DNA from: Pseudobutyrivibrio ruminis CF1b
GTDB taxonomy: Bacteria; Bacillota; Clostridia; Lachnospirales; Lachnospiraceae
NCBI RefSeq assembly: GCF_000424005.1
Contig: NZ_AUJB01000001.1
Coordinates: 1 to 64,000 of the forward strand
DNA length: 64,000 nucleotides
Reading direction: 5' to 3'
Shown here piece by piece: positions 23,510-55,883 of the stretch. Both the position numbers and the translations under genes were made by a program. The notes beneath the pieces were generated by a model. It had not been told where the DNA came from, ran no database searches, and saw nothing but the letters and a program-made list of their open reading frames with translations. Position 1 is the first letter of the stretch. Every line of letters begins with the position of its first letter.

Positions 23510-24694
23510 TTAATTAATAACTCTTAGACTTCTGTCTAAAATGCCATTGAATTCCGCTATGGCCATTCCGTAGTTAACTACTGGAACCCCCTGGGATTTG
23601 CAATGTTTAACGCGATTCTGCATTTCAGCCCCATTTATCATGCAACCACCGCAATGAATCACAAGTTTATATTTTGATAAATCTTCAGGAAAATCATTTC
23701 CAGAAGAAAATTCAAAATCAATTTCTTTGCCAGTGTATTTTTTAACCCATCCTGGCATCTTTACGGTGCCGATGTCGTTACACTGTCTGTGATGAGTGCA
23801 GGCCTCTGAAATAAGAACCTTATCCCCATCCTCTAATTTCTTAAGAGCTGCAACACCCTCAAGCTGAGTATTCAGGCTGCCCTTGTAGCGAGCCATAAGA
23901 ATACTGAATGATGTAAGTGCTGTATCCTCAGGAACAATCTTTGAAACTTCTTCAAATGCCTGTGAATCAGTAATTACCAATGATATATTTTTATCTTCTT
24001 CAAGTGCCTCTGCCAGCTCTTCTACCTGGCAGCAAAGAATCTTGCAATTGTTATCAAGAAGGTCTCTGAGAACCATCTGCTGTGGAAGAATTACTCTTCC
24101 CTTTGGTGCCGACTCATCAATTGGGATAACCAAAACCACTGTGCTCTTTGGCTCAACCAAATCAGCAACAAGCGCTGGCTCCTTGATATCAGGAAGAAGC
24201 TTTATCAAGGCTTCCTTTACCTTTGACATATCATCGGATGTGGCATCCACATATATAAGGCTTTCTTCCTCTAGACCTGGATAGCCATGGGCCTCGGCCT
24301 CATCTGTGTGATTCTCAATTATTATGTAAGGAACTTTGCGCTCCTTAACATTTTTAAGGAAATCAGCTTCCTCTTCAGAAAGCTCTTTCTCTCTGGCATC
24401 AAGTACCATCACCACAATATCAATCTCATCCAGGATTCGATATGTACGATTCTTTCTAAGCTCGCCAAGCTCTCCCTCATCATCGAAACCTGCTGTATCG
24501 ATGATAACCACCGGACCGATTGGCAAAATCTCCATTGCCTTTTTTACAGGGTCAGTAGTGGTGCCTTTGTGAGCTGAAACCAGAGAAATCTCCTGATTTG
24601 TAAGTTTATTTACGATGCTGGATTTTCCAGCATTTCTGATTCCAAAAAAGCCGATGTGGACACGCTGGCCACTGGCTGTATTGTTAAGGGACAT
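23510..24694 (-). CDS. hydF: [FeFe] hydrogenase maturation GTPase HydF
   Basis: A 394-residue scaffold for the [2Fe] subcluster. The GTPase domain has a Walker A motif GIRNAGKSS (about 18-26) and DTAGFDDEG as G3. The C-terminal domain has the conserved Fe-S ligand set CTHHRQCNDIG and HCGGCM. HydF accepts the [2Fe] precursor made by HydG and HydE and transfers it to apo-hydrogenase. It lies 39 bp before the hydrogenase gene and has an AGGAGG site before its ATG. Confidence 0.97.
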   Translation of the reverse strand: MSLNNTASGQRVHIGFFGIRNAGKSSIVNKLTNQEISLVSAHKGTTTDPVKKAMEILPIGPVVIIDTAGFDDEGELGELRKNRTYRILDEIDIVVMVLDAREKELSEEEADFLKNVKERKVPYIIIENHTDEAEAHGYPGLEEESLIYVDATSDDMSKVKEALIKLLPDIKEPALVADLVEPKSTVVLVIPIDESAPKGRVILPQQMVLRDLLDNNCKILCCQVEELAEALEEDKNISLVITDSQAFEEVSKIVPEDTALTSFSILMARYKGSLNTQLEGVAALKKLEDGDKVLISEACTHHRQCNDIGTVKMPGWVKKYTGKEIDFEFSSGNDFPEDLSKYKLVIHCGGCMINGAEMQNRVKHCKSQGVPVVNYGMAIAEFNGILDRSLRVIN

Positions 24695-24751
24695 ACTCGC
24701 CTCCTATAAGAATACAATAAAATTTTGTTTATTTTATTAAAAAACTAAGAA

Positions 24752-26194
24752 CTAGAAGCGGAAATCTCTTCTGTTAGAGTTCTTGATAGCCTCTATATTT
24801 TCCTCGGCAGTCTTTCTAACATTTTCCTTTGGAATCTTCTTTAATTCTTCCTCAATCATCTTGTAGCCAACCTTCTTTGTCTCCTCAGAAGCATAATCTA
24901 CAAGGTACTCTGTAAGAGTCATGAGAGCATTTGGATGACAGCAGTTAATAATCTGACCTGTCTTGCAAAGTGACATGAATCTGTCACCTGTACGTCCTGC
25001 GCGGTAGCAAGCTGTACAGAATGAAGGGATGTGACCTGTCTCCATAAGCCACTTAACTACCTCATCGAGAGTACGCTGATCAGAAACATCAAACTGCTCT
25101 GTATCGTGTGGTCTCTCCTCTTCTGTGTAGCCACCTACTGATGTACGGCTGGCACCAGAAACCTGTGAAATACCAACCTGAAGCATCTTACGTCTAACTT
25201 CCTCAGACTCACGAGTAGAGATAATCATACCTGTGTAAGGAACTGCAATTCTGATGCAGGCTGCAATCTTTGTGAACATCTCGTCTGGAATAGAGTTGTC
25301 GAATACATCTGGGTCGATGTCATCAGCGTGCTTTACACGTGGAACTGAAATAGTGTGTGGGCCAACGCCGTGAACTGCCTCAAGATGCTCTGCATGCATG
25401 AGAAGTCCTGTGAACTCATACTTGTAGCTCTCAAGTCCGAAAAGAACACCAAGACCTACATCATCGATTCCACCTTCCATGGCACGGTCCATAGCCTCTG
25501 TATGGTATGCATAATCGTGCTTTGGTCCTGTTGGGTGAAGCTCCTCATAGCTCTTTTTATTGTATGTCTCCTGGAAGAGGATGTATGTACCGATTCCTGC
25601 TTCCTTGAGCTTGCGATAATTCTCAACTGTTGTAGCTGCGATATTAACATTTACACGTCTGATATCGCCGTTCTTATGGTGAATGCTGTAAATTGTATCG
25701 ATACACTCGAGGATGTATTCGATTGGGTTGTTAACTGGATCCTCACCTGCTTCGATGGCAAGTCTCTTGTGACCCATATCCTGAAGTGCGATAACCTCAG
25801 CCTTAACCTCTTCCTGTGTAAGCTTCTTACGTGCGATGTGCTTATTCTTAATGTGATATGGACAGTAAACACAACCGTTTACACAGTAATTTGAAAGATA
25901 AAGTGGAGCAAAGAGAACGATACGGTTACCGTAGAAAGCATCCTTAATCTCCTGTGCTACGCTGTACATCTTCTCGATATATTTTGAATCATCGCAGGCA
26001 AGAAGAACTGCTGCCTCACGATGTGAAAGACCGCTGCATACACAGCCTTCTGCTGTCTTTACTGGTCTTGCTTTTTCAAGGAGCTGATCAATAAGCTCAA
26101 AATTGTTTTTGTTTGCTTCGGCATATTCTATTGTGTCGAGGATTTCCTGATGGTCAATGAACTCATCAGCTTTCATAGATTTTACGTTGTACAT
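24752..26194 (-). CDS. hydG: [FeFe] hydrogenase maturation radical SAM enzyme HydG
   Basis: A 480-residue ThiH-like tyrosine lyase that produces the CO and CN ligands of the H-cluster. The radical SAM CX3CX2C motif is C104-C108-C111. The C-terminal auxiliary cluster motif is present in CTACYRAGRTGDRF and the following Cys near INCCHPN. It starts 4 bp after hydE, with an AGAGG site overlapping the hydE end, so the two are likely co-translated. Confidence 0.97.
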   Translation of the reverse strand: MYNVKSMKADEFIDHQEILDTIEYAEANKNNFELIDQLLEKARPVKTAEGCVCSGLSHREAAVLLACDDSKYIEKMYSVAQEIKDAFYGNRIVLFAPLYLSNYCVNGCVYCPYHIKNKHIARKKLTQEEVKAEVIALQDMGHKRLAIEAGEDPVNNPIEYILECIDTIYSIHHKNGDIRRVNVNIAATTVENYRKLKEAGIGTYILFQETYNKKSYEELHPTGPKHDYAYHTEAMDRAMEGGIDDVGLGVLFGLESYKYEFTGLLMHAEHLEAVHGVGPHTISVPRVKHADDIDPDVFDNSIPDEMFTKIAACIRIAVPYTGMIISTRESEEVRRKMLQVGISQVSGASRTSVGGYTEEERPHDTEQFDVSDQRTLDEVVKWLMETGHIPSFCTACYRAGRTGDRFMSLCKTGQIINCCHPNALMTLTEYLVDYASEETKKVGYKMIEEELKKIPKENVRKTAEENIEAIKNSNRRDFRF

Positions 26195-26198
26195 TTCT

Positions 26199-27263
26199 TT
26201 ACCTCTTTTCTATAAAACCCGCCCTGTTACCAGCGTCTGTAACGACCTCATAACCGATGGACGAGACACGCCCTTTAAGGCATGCAATGCACTCAGCGGC
26301 TTCTTCGCCAGTGCAGATTTTGTTGTCATATAATGTGTACATCTTTCGCACTGATGTAGGAGAAAGGTTAGGCATGAGAACATTGGCTCCTGCCAGGATG
26401 CCTTTCTCTCTTCCCTTTGGATCAATTGTACCAAGAGCTGTTGTAGCTGGAATAAGCATCTGTGGATAAATGATTCTAAGCAATGACAACAAGAAAAGAG
26501 TCATCTCCATAGTGCCGCTTTCTTCCTTTGCAAAAGGTGTATCCTTATGGCTAATAAATGGCCCGATGCCACACATGTCTGGCTTGAATTCTTCGATGAA
26601 CTTCAAATCCTTTGCCAAATCAGCGGCAGTCTGCCCAGGGGACTGAACCATAAATCCAGCGCCTACCTGATAACCGATATCTTTTAATTCACGAAGGCAG
26701 TTCATTCTGTGCTCAAAGCTCATCTCCTCAGGATGAAGCTTGTCATAAAGCTCTGAACTGGCAGTCTCATGTCTAAGCAGGAATCTTCTGGCCCCTGCCT
26801 CATAGTATGCCTCGTAGCTAGAGCGCTCTCTTTCACCAATGGAAAGAGTAATAACCATATCTGGATGAGACTGCTTGATTCCTTTGATAATCTCACAAAT
26901 ATCCTCATCACTATATGTATAATCTTCTCCGCCCTGAAGAACTACTGTCCTAAATCCAAGCTGGTAGCCTTCATTAGCACAGGCAATGATATCATCCTTT
27001 CTGAGACGATATCTTTCGCACTCCCTGTTACCTCTTCTGATGCCACAATAATAGCAGTCATTCTTACAATAATTTGTAAATTCTACCAGACCTCTTACGA
27101 ATACCTTTTTTCCATAAAACTGTTCCTGATACTTCACAGCATACTCTGCTGCACGTTTCATTAAATCAGGATTAATATTCTCTATAAGAAGCTGATATTC
27201 CTCCAGCTCAAGGGAATGTTCTCTATTTAATTTGTCTAGTGTTTCTATTAACTTTGAATCCAT
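26199..27263 (-). CDS. hydE: [FeFe] hydrogenase maturation radical SAM enzyme HydE
   Basis: A 354-residue radical SAM enzyme of the BioB/HydE type. The CX3CX2C motif is C66-C70-C73 (NYCKNDCYYCG), and downstream GGEDYTY and barrel motifs match the family. HydE processes the HydG-derived iron complex on the way to the [2Fe] subcluster. It is the first gene of the hydEGF-hydrogenase run. The only ribosome binding site candidate, AAGG, sits too close to the ATG, so the start or a leader effect is less certain than for its neighbours. Confidence 0.95.
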   Translation of the reverse strand: MDSKLIETLDKLNREHSLELEEYQLLIENINPDLMKRAAEYAVKYQEQFYGKKVFVRGLVEFTNYCKNDCYYCGIRRGNRECERYRLRKDDIIACANEGYQLGFRTVVLQGGEDYTYSDEDICEIIKGIKQSHPDMVITLSIGERERSSYEAYYEAGARRFLLRHETASSELYDKLHPEEMSFEHRMNCLRELKDIGYQVGAGFMVQSPGQTAADLAKDLKFIEEFKPDMCGIGPFISHKDTPFAKEESGTMEMTLFLLSLLRIIYPQMLIPATTALGTIDPKGREKGILAGANVLMPNLSPTSVRKMYTLYDNKICTGEEAAECIACLKGRVSSIGYEVVTDAGNRAGFIEKR

Positions 27264-27371
27264 ACCTTATTGATAAAAAATTATCGTTTAATTTTTCACA
27301 AAGTATACTATATCACAATTATTTGTAGGAATTCTGTTTTCTTTTAGGAACAATATTAATGTTTTGCCCAC

Positions 27372-27400
27372 AAAAAAAGGAACCCTCTCGGATTCCTCTT
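27372..27400 (-). terminator. Terminator downstream of the 32-codon ORF
   Basis: A GGAA/TTCC stem with inner CC/GG pairs (about 27379-27396) is followed on the minus strand by seven T residues. It lies 21 bp past the stop of the small ORF at 27421 and closes whatever is transcribed from the 27.5-27.8 kb region. Confidence 0.7.
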
Positions 27401-27420
27401 TCTCGTGTCGTCGTGGATGA

Positions 27421-27519
27421 TTAGCTCTTTTTCATTTCCAGCCTTTTGAGCATACGTCTAGTCCTGTGATTCTCAACCATAGTCCTAAACATTTTCATCT
27501 TAAGGATAAACACTTTCAT
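27421..27519 (-). CDS. Candidate 32-residue basic peptide
   Basis: A short ORF reading MKVFILKMKMFRTMVENH and then an Arg/Lys-rich tail ending EMKKS. About a third of its residues are Lys or Arg. The ATG (27517-27519) is preceded by GAGAGG at a ten-base spacing, and a strong terminator follows the stop. It is not recognised. Upstream is about 240 bp without a convincing gene, with a possible promoter at 27759-27764 beneath a TTGGCAA direct repeat. It could be a signalling peptide, an antimicrobial peptide, a leader ORF or chance. Nothing further about function can be supported. Confidence 0.4.
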   Translation of the reverse strand: MKVFILKMKMFRTMVENHRTRRMLKRLEMKKS

Positions 27520-27757
27520 AACCACAATACCTCTCACCATTCTCTTTCATTCTCAGCGACCAATGTAATCTCGATTTGAGTAGCTGTGGCCTCCCCTGCC
27601 ACGAGCCGCTCTGGCTGTGAATATTTCTCAACACCTCGACACCATTTTTATCCCTATAACTGCCGTTCTCAATAATTCATCAATTATCTCAATTGCGTCT
27701 ATTCTGTGTCATATCTGTGATGGTTATGTGAACGTCATCTAACAATATGTACTTTAC
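27520..27757 (-). other. Gene-poor 240-bp stretch, possible leader or small RNA
   Basis: No gene with start, ribosome binding site and normal length was found. The minus strand has GC-rich patches that can fold, such as AGCC with GGCT and GTGG with CCAC near 27580-27620. One open frame without a usable start crosses this stretch. If the proposed promoter is real, this would be a long 5' leader of the 32-codon ORF. Confidence 0.35.
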
Positions 27758-27758
27758 C

Positions 27759-27810
27759 ATTCTAAAGAGCTTTGAACAATAGATTGGCAAAATCGTCGAT
27801 TTTTTGGCAA
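27759..27810 (-). promoter_or_regulatory. TTGGCAA direct-repeat pair (site 2) with a possible -10
   Basis: TTGGCAA occurs at 27784-27790 and 27804-27810, a 20-bp period. In the minus-strand direction a -10-like TAGAAT (27759-27764) lies about 20 bp downstream. The pair closely matches site 1 at 29910-29936. Two direct repeats two helical turns apart are typical of LytTR-family binding sites, and a LytTR regulator is encoded 2 kb away. An overlapping palindrome AAAATCGTCGATTTT means a weak hairpin is an alternative reading. Confidence 0.45.
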
Positions 27811-27815
27811 CAACA

Positions 27816-29798
27816 CTATTGATTAAGCTTATCTATTACCTTTGTTGCAGCTCTACGCTTCACTTCAATCAAACCAACAAGTCCTCCTGCAAGTGAAACT
27901 CCACCGAGAGCGATAAACCACTTTGCATGCTGAATCATACCCGCAAGTGTGATTGCAAGTGGAATATTCTCTTCGTCGATTGTGACGATTTCATCTGGAA
28001 CAGGCAAAATATCCTGTGGCTGAACAACCTTATCTTTAGAAGCAGATTTTTCAGCACCTGCCATTTCAGATTTACCTGTATTACCAGCTACTTCTGCTTC
28101 ATTTATAACTGAAACTTCAGCACCACTACCTGCAGTGGTAGGAGTCACTTCATCCTGAATCTCCTCCAGCTCCACCAATTCCTGATCGATTCTTGCTTCC
28201 AGTCTGGCAATATTAGAGGCAAGAGTGCCTGATGACTGGGCACTGCCTGAGGAACTATTCTGTGAAACAGGAGTTGCCTTGACGAATTTTTCATTAAACA
28301 ACATCTTTGCATCAGAAAGTGTAGCCTTGGCACTTTCAAGGTTTTCTTTTGCATCAGTATACTCAAGCTGTGCGCTTTCAAGTAAACCTTCCAAACGTGC
28401 CATCTCTGCGGCTGAATTTAAATCTGTAGCCTTATTCAGCTCTTCTATCTGCAATTTTATAGAAGTCACTTTATCCCTTGCATCCTGAAAATCTGCCTTT
28501 GCAATTTCCACTGATGCCAATAAACTGTTGTATGCGTCAATTTTTGCTCTAACGCCTGAAATGTAGGTAGTATAATCAGTAACAAACTGCATCCACATTT
28601 CATCTCCAACGTTAATATATCTTTCTTCGAAGCTATTGTTGGCTTTCTTGGCACTACCCATCAAAAGAGGTTTCTTTGATTCCTTTTTTGGGGAAACAGG
28701 CACCTGGATTTCCATGTATTTTTTGCTATAAATCTGCACCTGCCAGGTCTCTTTGTCTATTATGCATCCATAAATAGCATATACTTCACGGACAACTTTT
28801 TTATCCTCGTTGGCAATGCTGTAAATAACACTGACGCGACTACCGTCATCCTCCATAGGTTCGATTCTTAAGTTTTCGATTGTCTGACCGACTAAAAGCC
28901 CCTCAACCTTTGGCAGATAATAATACTGGAGTATTGCAGCAACATATGTATTTGCATATGTCATTCGATCTTCATCTGAAGCATTAACTGCTGCATTCTC
29001 AGCAGCTACCAATGCATCTGCTCCAGCATCGGCAATTTCCTTCTGTGCAGATTCAAGTTGCTTTTGGAGGTCATCCAAATGTGCCTGAGCAGACTCCAAT
29101 GCTGACTCTGCACCAGCTAAATTACCAGTGGCCTCTTCTTTATTGAGGTTGTATGCAACAAGTGCTGTTTCGTAGTCATCCTTGGCAATATTATATGCCA
29201 ACAATGCATCATTATATTTATTCTCAGCTTCGTCAAAAGCTGTCTGTGCCTCTTCTACAGTCTTATCTGTGTCCGCAATAATAGTGGCAGCATCAGCTTC
29301 GGAAACGTTTTCATCTTTAATAATAGAAACTGCATCCTGAGCCTGTTCATTTGCTGCAGATGTAGCTTCTCCAACATTCTTAATGGCGCTATCTGCCTGT
29401 GAAACCGCATCCTGCACCTGAGTCTGGGCTTCGCCGATAGCCTCCCCTGCTTTTACAATATTATCTAAAGACGCACTAACAGAACCTACCGCGTCCTTTG
29501 CAGTAGCTTCGTTTTCTAATACCGCTGAAACCTCCTGGTCAAACTGCCCCTCTGCCGCTGGTGCAGAAGCAGCCTCACTAAGCTGGCTTGTAGTGTTCGT
29601 ATTGAGTTGTTCCGATAAATTTGAAACCTCTTCAGCTATAGCCTTCTCTCCAGAATCGCTAAATAACTGCTGTTCTGTGGTGGTATCTGCATCGTTTACT
29701 GCTTCAGCTGCCTGGGCATACATTGTCATGCCAGTCGGGGCAACTAAAGAAAGAGCAGACAAGCCAATGGTTATAGCTTGCACCGAACGATTTTTCAT
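27816..29798 (-). CDS. Secreted, membrane-anchored coiled-coil protein
   Basis: A 660-residue exported protein. A signal peptide (about 1-31, ending near AQA) is followed by a long Ala/Glu/Asp-rich segment with coiled-coil character (about 60-270). A compact region follows (about 275-415, with YYLPKVEGLLVGQTIENLRI), then a second coiled coil (about 420-520). A C-terminal transmembrane helix (about 622-645) is followed by a basic tail. No catalytic motif or known family is recognised. It is preceded by repeat site 1 and lies next to a LytTR regulator, which suggests it is a regulated surface protein. Start: AGAAGGA is 13 bases upstream of the ATG. Confidence 0.8.
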   Translation of the reverse strand: MKNRSVQAITIGLSALSLVAPTGMTMYAQAAEAVNDADTTTEQQLFSDSGEKAIAEEVSNLSEQLNTNTTSQLSEAASAPAAEGQFDQEVSAVLENEATAKDAVGSVSASLDNIVKAGEAIGEAQTQVQDAVSQADSAIKNVGEATSAANEQAQDAVSIIKDENVSEADAATIIADTDKTVEEAQTAFDEAENKYNDALLAYNIAKDDYETALVAYNLNKEEATGNLAGAESALESAQAHLDDLQKQLESAQKEIADAGADALVAAENAAVNASDEDRMTYANTYVAAILQYYYLPKVEGLLVGQTIENLRIEPMEDDGSRVSVIYSIANEDKKVVREVYAIYGCIIDKETWQVQIYSKKYMEIQVPVSPKKESKKPLLMGSAKKANNSFEERYINVGDEMWMQFVTDYTTYISGVRAKIDAYNSLLASVEIAKADFQDARDKVTSIKLQIEELNKATDLNSAAEMARLEGLLESAQLEYTDAKENLESAKATLSDAKMLFNEKFVKATPVSQNSSSGSAQSSGTLASNIARLEARIDQELVELEEIQDEVTPTTAGSGAEVSVINEAEVAGNTGKSEMAGAEKSASKDKVVQPQDILPVPDEIVTIDEENIPLAITLAGMIQHAKWFIALGGVSLAGGLVGLIEVKRRAATKVIDKLNQ

Positions 29799-29894
29799 AA
29801 ACTTTTCTAGTCCTTCTTATTTTTTCTTTATACTCTCCCGAGAAAAACGTTATAGGATATAATTCCCGTTAATACCACCTTACCAAATAAATAA

Positions 29895-29950
29895 AGAGAC
29901 GCAAGTGCTTTGGCAAAATCGCATTGATTTTGGCAAAAACCTACGTCTCT
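29895..29950 (-). promoter_or_regulatory. TTGGCAA direct-repeat pair (site 1) inside an AGAGACG/CGTCTCT hairpin
   Basis: TTGGCAA occurs at 29910-29916 and 29930-29936, the same 20-bp period as site 2. It lies about 112 bp upstream of the coiled-coil gene start, a promoter position. The pair is enclosed by AGAGACG (29895-29901) and CGTCTCT (29944-29950), with CAAAATC/GATTTTG inside. On the minus strand TTTATTTATTT follows, so the hairpin may also terminate the response regulator transcript. Both roles are possible. Confidence 0.5.
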
Positions 29951-29978: not shown

Positions 29979-30692
29979 TTAATTGCTACTGAACTGGTAA
30001 TCTCTAATTTTTTGAGTGATGTCTGCAATCTTCTTTGCTGACATTGGGAAAATGGATCTGTCATCTAAATAAACATCTCCACCTTCAATTCTGTCAATGT
30101 AATCCATATTGATTATAATACCTCGGTTAATCATAATGAATCTTCTGTCAGAACCAGTCATGCTAAGAAATTCTCCCGATGTCAGACGCACTCTTGATGA
30201 GCCTCCGTCATCCTTATGAATCTCCAGATAATGTCCATCTGTAGTCACGGAAACAATATTCTTAAGATAAATTCTCTCGTCTACAGAACCAACTGTGATT
30301 TTAATAAAGATTGCATCTATTGGTGTATGATCAACAATTTCTGCAATTACGTTATCTATTCTTTCCAAAGTGAAAGGCTTTGTCACATAATCAAAAGCAT
30401 GAAGAGAAAATGCATCAGGATAATGTCCCTCTGAAGCAGTCATGAAAATAAGGAATGTTTTTTCAGTGAGCTCTCTCAGCTTCTTTGCTGTTTCTATGCC
30501 ATCCATGTCCGGCATAAAAATATCCATAAAAACAATGTCAAAACGACGTTCTGTCAATGCCTCAACAAAGGACTGACCTGTCTCGAATTCTTCTACCTCC
30601 AGGTTTAATGCCCTTTTGCTGGCCACCTTCTCCACCATCATTTTGAGCTGCATTCTGAAAATGCTTTCATCATCAATAACTGCTACTCTCAT
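29979..30692 (-). CDS. LytTR-family response regulator
   Basis: A 237-residue transcription factor of the AgrA/LytR type. The receiver domain (about 1-122) has the acidic pair D7-D8, phospho-acceptor D57 (VFMDIFMPDMDG), Thr in MTASEG and Lys in VTKPF. The LytTR DNA-binding domain spans about 132-235. Family knowledge: LytTR regulators bind pairs of short direct repeats about two helical turns apart and often control surface or peptide genes. It is divergent from a hybrid histidine kinase and upstream of the coiled-coil gene. The start is fixed by GGGGAGGG. Confidence 0.93.
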   Translation of the reverse strand: MRVAVIDDESIFRMQLKMMVEKVASKRALNLEVEEFETGQSFVEALTERRFDIVFMDIFMPDMDGIETAKKLRELTEKTFLIFMTASEGHYPDAFSLHAFDYVTKPFTLERIDNVIAEIVDHTPIDAIFIKITVGSVDERIYLKNIVSVTTDGHYLEIHKDDGGSSRVRLTSGEFLSMTGSDRRFIMINRGIIINMDYIDRIEGGDVYLDDRSIFPMSAKKIADITQKIRDYQFSSN

Positions 30693-30854: not shown

Positions 30855-33488
30855 ATGACATTTATTCAAGAAAATATGCTCTATGTCAATATTATTATTC
30901 TGATCGTTGGCACCACCTCTGTTCATCTGGGTGTCAGCTTCTTACGAAGAGAGCGCCATACCAAGGGCTTTTTTAAATACTCAGTTTTCCTGCTTGCCCT
31001 GGGAAGTGGTCTTTGTTCCTTAGGCTATTCTCTCATGTCCTTAAGTCCAAACCTGACTCTCGCCTATGTTTTCAGAGTTATAGGTTTACTTGGTATAGAC
31101 ATTTATATAATTGCCGAAATCATCCTTATCACCAGCTGTCTGAACATCAGTAAAACCGCTGAGATTTTCATTATATGGGTGACATCTCTGGCTGCCCTTT
31201 TGGATCTGGTTATTTATGGAAATCCTGGTTCAAACAAATTTTACAGACTGGACAACTATACTATCTACGTTAGAGATGACCCTTACAGACATCTTTTCCA
31301 TTATTCATATCAGCTTTTGATAGCAATCTGCCTTTTAACAGTAGGTTTTGTCTGGGCATTCAACGTAAAGTACAGACGTGATAAACAGCTGGTATTATTC
31401 GCATTTTTATCAAACTTTATTTTTGCGTCATCTTCTATTCCAGATTTATTCCTTACCATGCACGAAGTGCCTTTCCTTCATGCTTTCTATTGTATTGGTG
31501 TTTCCATAGCTTTTGCGGTGTTCTTTATATCCGCCAATGACTACATGGTTTTCTATATCACCATCAATAGTATCAGTAAGGATATCTTTTCAACCTTAGG
31601 AACAGGACTTTTGGTATTTGATACCAACTATCATCTGAATCTTTCAAATGATTATGCTAACAAACTACTGGGTCTGGACAAGGAACCTCAGCGTATTCGT
31701 CTTCGAGAAATTTTTGATTTGAGAAGTGGCGAACCTATGAGAATGTTTGATAAAGCTCAGGATGGTATTGCCATCGATTATCGTCTCACCGCCAACGTAA
31801 CCGGCAAAGTTACACTGGTAAATTTCTCCTGCAAGATGGATAGAAACAACCAGCCTATGTGTTACATTTTGGTAGCGACTGATCTGACTGAAGAAAACAG
31901 ACTTATCCAGGAAGCTCAGTCTGCAAACGCTGCAAAGAGTACATTCCTGAGCAACATTTCCCATGAGATTCGTACTCCTATCAATGTAATCACTGGTATG
32001 AACGAACTTATCCTGAGAGAATGCCACGAAGCTAATATTTTGAAATATGCTGATAATATAAATGTTGCCTCGCGAAATCTTACATCTCTGGTTAACGACG
32101 TATTAGATTTCTCAAAGATTGAGTCCGGAAAGATTGAGATTGTTTCTACTGATTTCGACATTGGTATGGCGTTAAGTGACAGTTACAATATGTTCCTCAG
32201 TATGGCCCAAACCAAGAGGCAGAATTTCTCTTTGGAATGTGATCCTGATACGCCTAACATTTTACATGGTGATGAAGTACGTCTGAAGCAGATTCTTTCA
32301 AACCTCATCTCCAACGCAGTAAAATATACACCAGATGGTGGAACTATCGATGTAATAGTAAATTATGAAGAATTTGATGAACAGCAAATACTTCTTTCTA
32401 TAAAAGTTAGAGATAATGGTATCGGTATCAAATCGGAAGATCTCCCAAATCTGTTCGAGAACTTCCAGCGATTCGAGCTTAGTAAAAACAGGACTGTTCA
32501 GGGTACCGGACTTGGTTTGGCCATCACCAAAAACCTTGTTTCACTTTTACATGGAACAATTTCAGTTGAAAGTGTGTACGGCCGAGGATCAACATTTACA
32601 GTCAAATTGCCATTTATTGTCTCTGACCACTCGCCTCTGGGCAAGACCAAAGAACAGTTTGCTGCCGGTTCAAGCGCAAAATACAAGGTAAGCTTCAAAG
32701 CAAAAGACGCTCGAATACTTGCAGTTGACGATGTTCAGATGAACCAGGATGTATTTGTTGGACTTCTTAAGGAGACAGGAATACAGATAGACTGTGCACA
32801 GAATGGTTATCAGGCTTTGGATCTTCTTCACAAAAAGCATTACGATATCGTATTCCTTGACCATATGATGCCGGAAATGGATGGTATTCAGGTTCTTAGA
32901 TTGTTACGTGCTGACAGAGATTGTATCAACCAGTACATTCCAGCTATCATGCTTACAGCAAACGCACTTATGGGCGCTGACAGAAAGTATTTGGAAGACG
33001 GATTTGATGATTACCTTTCAAAGCCAATCAATCCTTCTGCCCTTGAAAACATGGTACTTAAACATCTTCCAGACAGGCTGATAACAAGTATTACCGAAGA
33101 CAATAACGTGGAACCTTCTCCTGATATCACTTCTGATACAGGTGATTTTACCTCGAAGCTTGATTTCCTCGATACTAAATCAGGACTGGAATTTGCTGCC
33201 GGAGATTTAGATTTTTATCATCAGATTTTGACTACCTACATGAATGACGACAAACGTGAGCAGCTCGATAAACACTACCAGGATAAGGACTGGGCAAACT
33301 ACAGAATTGTAGCTCACTCCATCAAAGGAACTTCGCTTACCATTGGAGCAACTGAAGTTTCTGAAGCTGCAAAAGGACTTGAGTTTGCTGTTAAAGAGGA
33401 GCGATATGAATATATCGAGGAGCATCATGAGGAAGTTATGAAGATGTATGGGGAATTGTTGGAGAAAATGAAAAAAGCGTTGCATTAA
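30855..33488 (+). CDS. Hybrid histidine kinase: 7TM sensor, PAS, kinase, receiver, Hpt
   Basis: An 877-residue multi-step phosphorelay protein. The N-terminal 235 residues form about seven membrane helices, like the histidine-kinase 7TM sensor module. A PAS-like region spans about 242-345, and HisKA has phospho-acceptor H370 in SNISHEIRTP. HATPase_c (about 470-590) has N-box NLISNAVKY, DNGIGI and GTGLGL. The receiver (about 620-740) has D669, and a C-terminal Hpt domain has H821 in VAHSIKGTS. The final Hpt can donate phosphate to a separate regulator; the divergent LytTR protein is the obvious candidate. The signal is unknown. Confidence 0.93.
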   Translation: MTFIQENMLYVNIIILIVGTTSVHLGVSFLRRERHTKGFFKYSVFLLALGSGLCSLGYSLMSLSPNLTLAYVFRVIGLLGIDIYIIAEIILITSCLNISKTAEIFIIWVTSLAALLDLVIYGNPGSNKFYRLDNYTIYVRDDPYRHLFHYSYQLLIAICLLTVGFVWAFNVKYRRDKQLVLFAFLSNFIFASSSIPDLFLTMHEVPFLHAFYCIGVSIAFAVFFISANDYMVFYITINSISKDIFSTLGTGLLVFDTNYHLNLSNDYANKLLGLDKEPQRIRLREIFDLRSGEPMRMFDKAQDGIAIDYRLTANVTGKVTLVNFSCKMDRNNQPMCYILVATDLTEENRLIQEAQSANAAKSTFLSNISHEIRTPINVITGMNELILRECHEANILKYADNINVASRNLTSLVNDVLDFSKIESGKIEIVSTDFDIGMALSDSYNMFLSMAQTKRQNFSLECDPDTPNILHGDEVRLKQILSNLISNAVKYTPDGGTIDVIVNYEEFDEQQILLSIKVRDNGIGIKSEDLPNLFENFQRFELSKNRTVQGTGLGLAITKNLVSLLHGTISVESVYGRGSTFTVKLPFIVSDHSPLGKTKEQFAAGSSAKYKVSFKAKDARILAVDDVQMNQDVFVGLLKETGIQIDCAQNGYQALDLLHKKHYDIVFLDHMMPEMDGIQVLRLLRADRDCINQYIPAIMLTANALMGADRKYLEDGFDDYLSKPINPSALENMVLKHLPDRLITSITEDNNVEPSPDITSDTGDFTSKLDFLDTKSGLEFAAGDLDFYHQILTTYMNDDKREQLDKHYQDKDWANYRIVAHSIKGTSLTIGATEVSEAAKGLEFAVKEERYEYIEEHHEEVMKMYGELLEKMKKALH

Positions 33489-33519: not shown

Positions 33520-33603
33520 GCCGGCTTGTCGGAATTGGCAGACGAGGCAGACTCAAAATCTGTTGATGGCAACATCGTGCGGGTTCAAGTCCCGCAGCCG
33601 GCA
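33520..33603 (+). tRNA. tRNA-Leu (anticodon CAA)
   Basis: An 84-nt class II tRNA. The acceptor stem GCCGGCT (33520-33526) pairs with AGCCGGC (33596-33602), with discriminator A. The anticodon loop CTCAAAA gives CAA, reading UUG. A long variable arm and GGTTCAAGT T-loop are present. The CCA end is not encoded. Confidence 0.96.
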
Positions 33604-35706: not shown

Positions 35707-35778
35707 GCTGGTGTGGCTCAGAGGTAGAGCACTTCCTTGGTAAGGAAGGGGTCACGGGTTCAATTCCCGTCACCAGCT
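35707..35778 (+). tRNA. tRNA-Thr (anticodon GGU)
   Basis: A 72-nt tRNA. The acceptor stem GCTGGTG pairs with CACCAGC (35771-35777), with discriminator T. The anticodon stem CTTCC/GGAAG encloses loop TTGGTAA, giving anticodon GGT, which reads ACC and ACU. The T-loop GGTTCAATT is present. CCA is not encoded. Confidence 0.96.
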
Positions 35779-55735: not shown

Positions 55736-55756
55736 TCTATTGAATTAAATAAACTA

Positions 55757-55838
55757 TTTGCTAGGGGCGCATTTGTGCTGAGAGGTGTTTCACCGACCCT
55801 TATTACTTGAACTGGATAATACCAGCGTAAGGAAGCTA
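55757..55838 (+). ncRNA. TPP riboswitch (THI element)
   Basis: The conserved core is present in order: GGGG..GCTGAGA, then ACCGACCC, then ACTTGAACTGGATAATACC and AGCGTAAGGAAG. These are the pyrimidine-sensing and pyrophosphate-sensing helices of the TPP aptamer. GCTAGG at the 5' edge (55760-55765) is complementary to CCTAGC (55853-55858) in the terminator arm, which provides the antiterminator. Confidence 0.95.
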
Positions 55839-55848
55839 TTTTTAGACG

Positions 55849-55883
55849 ATCTCCTAGCATCATGTATGAAGGGAGATTTTTTT
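55849..55883 (+). terminator. Riboswitch-controlled terminator overlapping the thiT ribosome binding site
   Basis: ATCTCC (55849-55854) pairs with GGAGAT (55872-55877), followed by seven T residues. The right arm is also the thiT ribosome binding site (GGGAG), so when TPP is bound the stem can block both elongation and initiation. Confidence 0.85.

Follow-up and report, generated by a model that had tools for sequence, protein, structure and literature searches.

Two pairs of the heptamer TTGGCAA lie on either side of a gene for a secreted coiled-coil protein in Pseudobutyrivibrio ruminis CF1b, and a LytTR response regulator and a hybrid histidine kinase are encoded beside them. This raises the question of which protein recognises the pairs and which genes are controlled through them. 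The window analysed comprises 64,000 nucleotides (positions 1 to 64,000 of contig NZ_AUJB01000001.1). Coordinates of its features are given in Table 1.

Table 1. Features of the window, ordered by position
Feature	Position	Strand	Basis
HydE, HydG and HydF hydrogenase maturation genes, directly after the microprotein transcript	23510-27263	-	
Intrinsic-terminator-like hairpin and U tract, end of the microprotein transcript	27371-27396	-	sequence, alignment
Probably structured, clade-specific RNA; microprotein ORF between two arms of a long helix	27405-27643	-	alignment folding
Conserved 32-aa microprotein ORF	27421-27519	-	relatives in 20 genomes
Microprotein promoter: -35-like TTGTTC (27779-27774), 17-bp spacer, -10-like TAAAGT (27756-27751)	27751-27779	-	sequence
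Site 1: TTGCCAA-N13-TTGCCAA direct repeat, before the microprotein gene	27784-27810	-	sequence and genome alignment
Secreted coiled-coil surface protein, 660 aa, signal peptide, C-terminal TM 628-646	27816-29798	-	sequence
Coiled-coil gene promoter: -35-like TTGCGT (29904-29899), 16-bp spacer, -10-like TAAGGT (29882-29877)	29877-29904	-	sequence
Hairpin around site 2, LytTR-gene terminator reading	29895-29950	-	dG -27.6, z -7.13, 0/200 shuffles
Site 2: TTGCCAA-N13-TTGCCAA direct repeat, before the coiled-coil gene	29910-29936	-	counterpart in 27/27 genus LytTR loci
LytTR response regulator, 237 aa, receiver and LytTR DNA-binding domain	29979-30692	-	Pfam
Divergent hybrid histidine kinase, 877 aa, membrane N-terminus, HisKA-HATPase-REC-Hpt	30855-33488	+	Pfam
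Two tRNA genes	33520-33603, 35707-35778	+	
TPP riboswitch	55753-55850	+	

The repeat pair and its occurrence

A search of the window for TTGGCAA pairs with an exact 20-bp period returned both sites at precisely the coordinates given in the initial annotation, and exact TTGGCAA-N13-TTGGCAA occurs nowhere else in the window. Since the HydE, coiled-coil and LytTR genes all lie on the minus strand, the sites read TTGCCAA-N13-TTGCCAA in the direction of transcription; the pairs described initially are thus real and the strand on which they are to be read is corrected. Site 1 is located between the coiled-coil stop codon and the 32-codon ORF, with hydE further on, and site 2 between the LytTR stop codon and the coiled-coil start. 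Taken singly, the heptamer shows only slight enrichment in the window, with 26 copies against 16.05 expected (at least 26 in 2 of 100 shuffles).

The motif search across the genome, which had been proposed as a check, yielded five exact repeat pairs in the 3.27 Mb of the CF1b genome and none of the reversed pattern. Using TTGCCA-N14-TTGCCAA, 119 matches were obtained, distributed over 28 of the 29 Pseudobutyrivibrio genomes searched. Twelve other spacings between N8 and N20 gave 112 matches together in the same 29 genomes (231-119, totals being drawn from per-genome counts). At about nine matches for each of these spacings, a period of 20 is roughly 13-fold over their mean, and about nine of the 119 sites are perhaps due to chance. 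The reversed pattern had no match in the 29 genomes, a weak control because the reversed word holds CG and is hence rarer; spacing is the fairer one. Outside the genus, a match was present in 51 of 297 genomes sampled across the family, as a rule a single one, and some of these genomes also gave hits with the reversed pattern.

Following removal of eight matches on contigs left out of the locus set, 111 sites were analysed, 12 of which lie inside ORFs. In six genomes (L133, L125, L094, L146, L150 and L090) the pattern falls within an ORF of about 700 aa with similar neighbours, where conserved coding sequence, not regulation, is presumably the cause. Elsewhere in the CF1b genome (contig C4, L279:2045-2087), an extended inverted repeat, built around GCCATATTGGCAA...TTGCCAATATGGC, resembles the motif, from which it differs in being palindromic. 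A repeat family was considered and rejected, the inner stem pattern occurring only twice in this genome.

LytTR operators, as far as they are described in PMC4847170, consist of repeats of 9-11 nt placed 11-13 nt apart and have no common consensus. The spacing that had been called LytTR-like agrees with this two-repeat geometry (9+11 = 20).

The adjacent regulator and its linkage to the sites

The regulator was assigned by Pfam (Response_reg, 79.8 bits; LytTR, PF04397, 30.2 bits with a cut-off of 22.6). Its receiver carries the phospho-acceptor Asp and the conserved Thr/Ser and Lys (D57, S87 and K105), which are invariant in 26 aligned sequences. The C-terminal LytTR domain was recovered by Pfam as well as by fold, the predicted structure (pLDDT 87) having full-length ComE as its best PDB match (E 1.2e-14, TM 0.52); searched on its own against PDB sequences, the C-terminal part gave nothing significant. 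The nearest named record is that of P. xylanivorans DSM 14809, with a 96% identical LytTR protein. The hybrid kinase contains five strong TM-like segments by hydropathy and scored below the cut-off for HisKA_7TM (19.7 vs 28.6 bits). It lies beside the LytTR gene in 27 of 27 LytTR loci and, as a guess from this position, is probably the partner of the regulator.

A clear orthologue of the regulator was detected in 27 of the 29 genus genomes. In each of them a site is found 5-98 nt past the LytTR stop codon (22 with the exact pattern, five one base off), and a coiled-coil relative is present in 26 of the 27 loci; a lack of conserved repeats upstream of orthologues, which the initial annotation had named as grounds for abandoning its reading, was therefore not encountered. 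Profile scores at the LytTR ends are partly circular, because 22 of these 27 sites belong to the training set of the profile. A second site in the same orientation lies within 6 kb in 21 of the 27 loci (profile score at least 15; some contigs end earlier). No comparable site flanks the other four LytTR genes of the CF1b genome (best score 2.7 vs 37.2). Upstream of the regulator's own start this motif was absent as well, all 27 upstream regions scoring -6.5 or lower, so its own control must differ.

Both repeats are likely to be bound by the adjacent LytTR regulator, probably paired with the kinase, which would activate a regulon of surface proteins together with the microprotein. The proposal of a LytTR regulon in the initial annotation is strengthened by the conservation of the site, its linkage to the regulator and the conservation of the microprotein; the LytTR identity of the binder, activation and the kinase partnership are what we infer from motif, spacing, promoter register, conservation and neighbours.

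That the operator, though real, serves some other transcription factor, perhaps a different one of the five LytTR proteins, with the adjacent one a mere neighbour, is unlikely. A broad ACnGTT-like consensus has been published for LytTR half-sites, and the half-site found here, TTYTTGCCARA with its TTGCCA core, does not match it. Such a mismatch is not disqualifying, as PMC4847170 gives no common consensus in its account of the operators: the published LytTR sites treated there have their architecture in common, not their sequence. The four further LytTR genes provide candidates for another binder, and one genus genome (G042; 81% complete, 460 contigs) has three sites with no LytTR orthologue detected; its site-bearing contig stops inside the coiled-coil gene. 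Against this stand the linkage in 27 of 27 loci and the joint absence of orthologue and site from G020, which kept other regulator-like matches, although this absence is weak evidence because the genome is only 83% complete.

The linkage also recurs in another genus, where genome G246 encodes a 38% identical LytTR protein beside a GHKL kinase. Two motif-like sites are present there, and their -10 elements lie at 27 nt and 28 nt; one of the sites is found 124 nt beyond the kinase gene. The LytTR-linked site (L275:8000-8027, minus strand) lies past the 3' end of the kinase gene and points antisense into it, so an antisense RNA could be made. Among the short ORFs after the G246 site no microprotein relative was evident. 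RUI004, with a 36% identical LytTR protein, has no such repeat past its regulator.

Co-variation between protein and DNA likewise argues against another factor. In the six genomes with Thr at LytTR residue 219, base 7 of the first half-site is G in 16 of 19 sites, compared with 9 of 75 in the remaining genomes, counting only sites with A or G at this base (those with T or C being left out) and excluding nine loci whose sites fall within ORFs or were suspected of being chance matches. This is suggestive only, because essentially one clade and thus about one event is involved. Residue 219, which lies in a loop, presumably adjoins a DNA-contacting residue, as we take it from the structure of AgrA.

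Promoter register, terminator and proposed mode of action

The profile of the 111 sites consists of TTYTTGCCARA half-sites in direct repeat, followed by a weak -35 and a -10 element. TAnnnT starts 27 nt past the repeat at 49 of the 111 sites, whereas other offsets have a mean of 4.1 and a maximum of 15. Both window sites share this 27-nt register between repeat and -10 element (TAAGGT and TAAAGT), and at both, 4-5 nt separate the end of the 7-bp core from the -35-like hexamer. Site 2 is placed at the promoter of the coiled-coil gene, and site 1 before an ORF of 32 codons on the minus strand, both as first described; the TAGAAT then put forward as -10 element of the small ORF had to be given up, being not conserved, while TAAAGT is identical in 7 of 7 aligned genomes.

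A second class comprises sites at which the repeat points the other way; the longest ORF starts 74-114 nt downstream of it, and -10 elements tend to lie at 41-42 nt, unlike the 27-nt register. The protein of this ORF has a MSRKKVESLLKGVAITG-like start in 17 of 22 examined cases, and several have serine-rich stretches. These opposite-orientation repeats (L130, L103, L107, L127, L129 and others), which lie before genes for secreted proteins, are often followed by GTTA.

With regulators of the YpdB, AgrA, ComE and VirR types, the system has in common a receiver with a LytTR domain and, ahead of the -35 element, a pair of direct repeats in helical register. It differs in the TTGCCA core, in a regulon of surface proteins and a microprotein, in an operator that lies on the regulator's own terminator, and in its hybrid kinase neighbour, those of the other types being of the LytS or AgrC kind. 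Direct repeats upstream of the -35 element are used by the LytTR proteins described in PMC6193735, PMC4227749 and PMC4847170. In the LytTR regulatory systems (LRS) HdrRM and BrsRM, as presented in PMC6193735, such repeats with 11-13 bp spacers lie 4-11 bp upstream of the -35 element; P. ruminis itself provides an LRS example there (CSX00_RS10965). This distance from the -35 element, as in the mutans LRS operons, was found at both window sites, and the reverse-oriented sites differ. A LytTR regulator and direct repeats upstream of the -35 element are common to LRS and the present locus. In LRS, as described in PMC6193735, however, the partner of the regulator is a membrane inhibitor protein, and repeats ahead of their own operon mediate autoregulation, whereas here the regulator is accompanied by a divergent hybrid kinase and a secreted coiled-coil protein, no co-operonic membrane inhibitor was found at the locus, and none of the 27 regions upstream of the regulator has a repeat of this motif. 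The regulator and operator belong to a known LytTR kind; the microprotein family and the overlay of terminator and promoter are the unusual parts. A search of the open-licence literature brought up no account of a surface regulon under a LytTR protein in Pseudobutyrivibrio.

In the favoured reading, in which the adjacent regulator binds and activates, the membrane-bound, divergently encoded hybrid kinase would probably phosphorylate the LytTR regulator, two molecules of which would occupy the tandem half-sites on the same side of the double helix, immediately before the -35 element, and bring in RNA polymerase. Through site 2 the coiled-coil surface protein would then be switched on, and through site 1 a short transcript with the 32-aa microprotein. 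Copies of the site elsewhere in the genome would do the same for other surface proteins: one rich in serine, those of SpaA type, which come with a secreted operon, and additional secreted proteins. If true, a regulon with its operator and regulator has been predicted from sequence alone for a rumen-bacterial genus, and large surface-protein families that are at present unannotated would be tied together. It would also provide a two-component handle on the building of the cell surface (adhesion or biofilm being a guess), a natural case of a regulator's terminator doubling as the promoter of its target, and a conserved microprotein that is new and has a well-defined genetic setting.

That LytTR binds and mainly represses, or acts as a roadblock, we regard as rather improbable. 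Terminator, site and -35 element do overlap at 29877-29950, and the reverse-oriented sites lie at other distances, both of which would suit such a role; the repeat, on the other hand, is wholly upstream of the -35 element in a fixed register, a position from which the LytTR proteins described in PMC6193735 and PMC4227749 activate.

The overlap with hairpins, noted as a caveat in the initial annotation, is real. At site 2 the 3' arm of the hairpin holds the -35 element of the next promoter, and its U-rich tail forms the spacer between -35 and -10. A strong hairpin (z below -2) was obtained at 23 of the 27 LytTR 3' ends (median z -4.26) and at 7 of the 89 other sites (median z -0.29; Fisher p 2e-14), so that a conserved hairpin does not accompany every repeat copy and the strong ones are best read as terminators of the regulator gene. 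The period of 20 bp, the half-sites and the 27-nt register are kept where the hairpin is weak or absent (e.g. L014 and L022), and Rfam gave no match at the sites at gathering thresholds. The arrangement is best read as a terminator of the regulator gene overlaid on the operator and promoter of the next gene, with the motif independent of the hairpin. That the repeats are mere arms of terminator hairpins, to which no protein binds and whose near-palindromic stem TTGSCAA only looks like a direct repeat, is very improbable and is rejected because strong hairpins occur mainly at LytTR 3' ends and period, half-sites and register survive without them, even though both window sites lie just past stop codons on the minus strand and can fold, site 2 strongly and site 1 weakly (z -2.47).

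Predicted surface-protein targets and the microprotein

From the 111 sites, 84 targets were retained after removal of those inside ORFs and of 15 without a gene start within 400 nt. Signal peptides were first scored as a mean hydropathy of at least 1.9 over 14 residues, a rule blind to signal cores rich in G, S or A, by which no enrichment was seen (31 of 84 targets, 100 of 320 background genes). By a second rule, written after this null outcome, 68 of the 84 targets were secreted-like, compared with 39 of 329 background genes from the same loci, the targets being orthologues and hence not independent. Represented among the targets are coiled-coil proteins with a membrane segment at the C-terminus, proteins rich in serine, and proteins of the Cna_B/fibro-slime or SpaA kind; a cytosolic-looking protein of 100 aa recurs in four genomes (G000, G008, G009 and G022).

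In the CF1b genome, one-mismatch sites (C4:11023 and C4:17671) precede genes for SpaA-domain surface proteins. In the region concerned (L278, C4:9001-20500), consecutive genes encode secreted proteins, among them two with SpaA domains and some small ones, and both large SpaA-type genes are preceded by a one-mismatch site. The small proteins are tentatively likened to TasA/camelysin; the one scanned had no Pfam hit. Second surface proteins in L135, L068 and L064 have a PLAG/PESG-like C-terminal motif, a tryptophan-rich membrane segment and terminal lysines, which together are possibly an anchoring signal.

The 32-codon ORF is a predicted gene for a conserved, previously unnamed microprotein. 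Its relatives measure 30-33 aa and are 47-97% identical across 20 genomes, and differences by codon position (1268/1001/2504 over 190 pairs) follow the pattern of a protein. One helix is predicted (pLDDT 92), and the net charge is +7 to +10. No family was found in NCBIfam, and Pfam, PHROGs and PDB gave weak hits only, the best in Pfam being a polyketide-synthase docking domain (E 0.00032; 7 of 20 members matching, E up to 10). A PSM-like amphipathic peptide was considered and discarded, as the most extreme of the 20 microproteins was still reached by 94 of 300 of its own shuffles.

The microprotein is tied to a site in all 20 genomes where it was found. In 11 it lies behind its own site-bearing promoter (in G043 with a weaker site), and in nine it follows a larger site-following gene at 5-59 nt (in G011 with an inexact site). 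Agr-type systems control small peptides, and they have in common with the present one a LytTR regulator over surface factors and a short peptide without evident signal sequence; compared by hydrophobic moment alone, the microprotein differs from theirs in being strongly basic and no more amphipathic than shuffles.

Tentatively, this new family of basic helical microproteins may be the invariant output of the system, keeping its association with the LytTR site through gain, loss and exchange of its neighbours, and may work together with the surface proteins, as an aid in export or assembly or in feedback on the kinase; in one clade its transcript might be a dual-function RNA. The RNA around the ORF is probably structured, with slight covariation support. 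A candidate structure was found at this position in five related genomes, and 5 of the 57 predicted pairs in their alignment show double-sided change, the covariation term being unfavourable. No Rfam family was detected at gathering thresholds, 27200-28000 giving sub-threshold hits only (E up to 10). In one genome (G009) no microprotein ORF is present, yet the RNA is still there together with its closing helix, and it is this persistence that makes a dual-function RNA possible in that clade.
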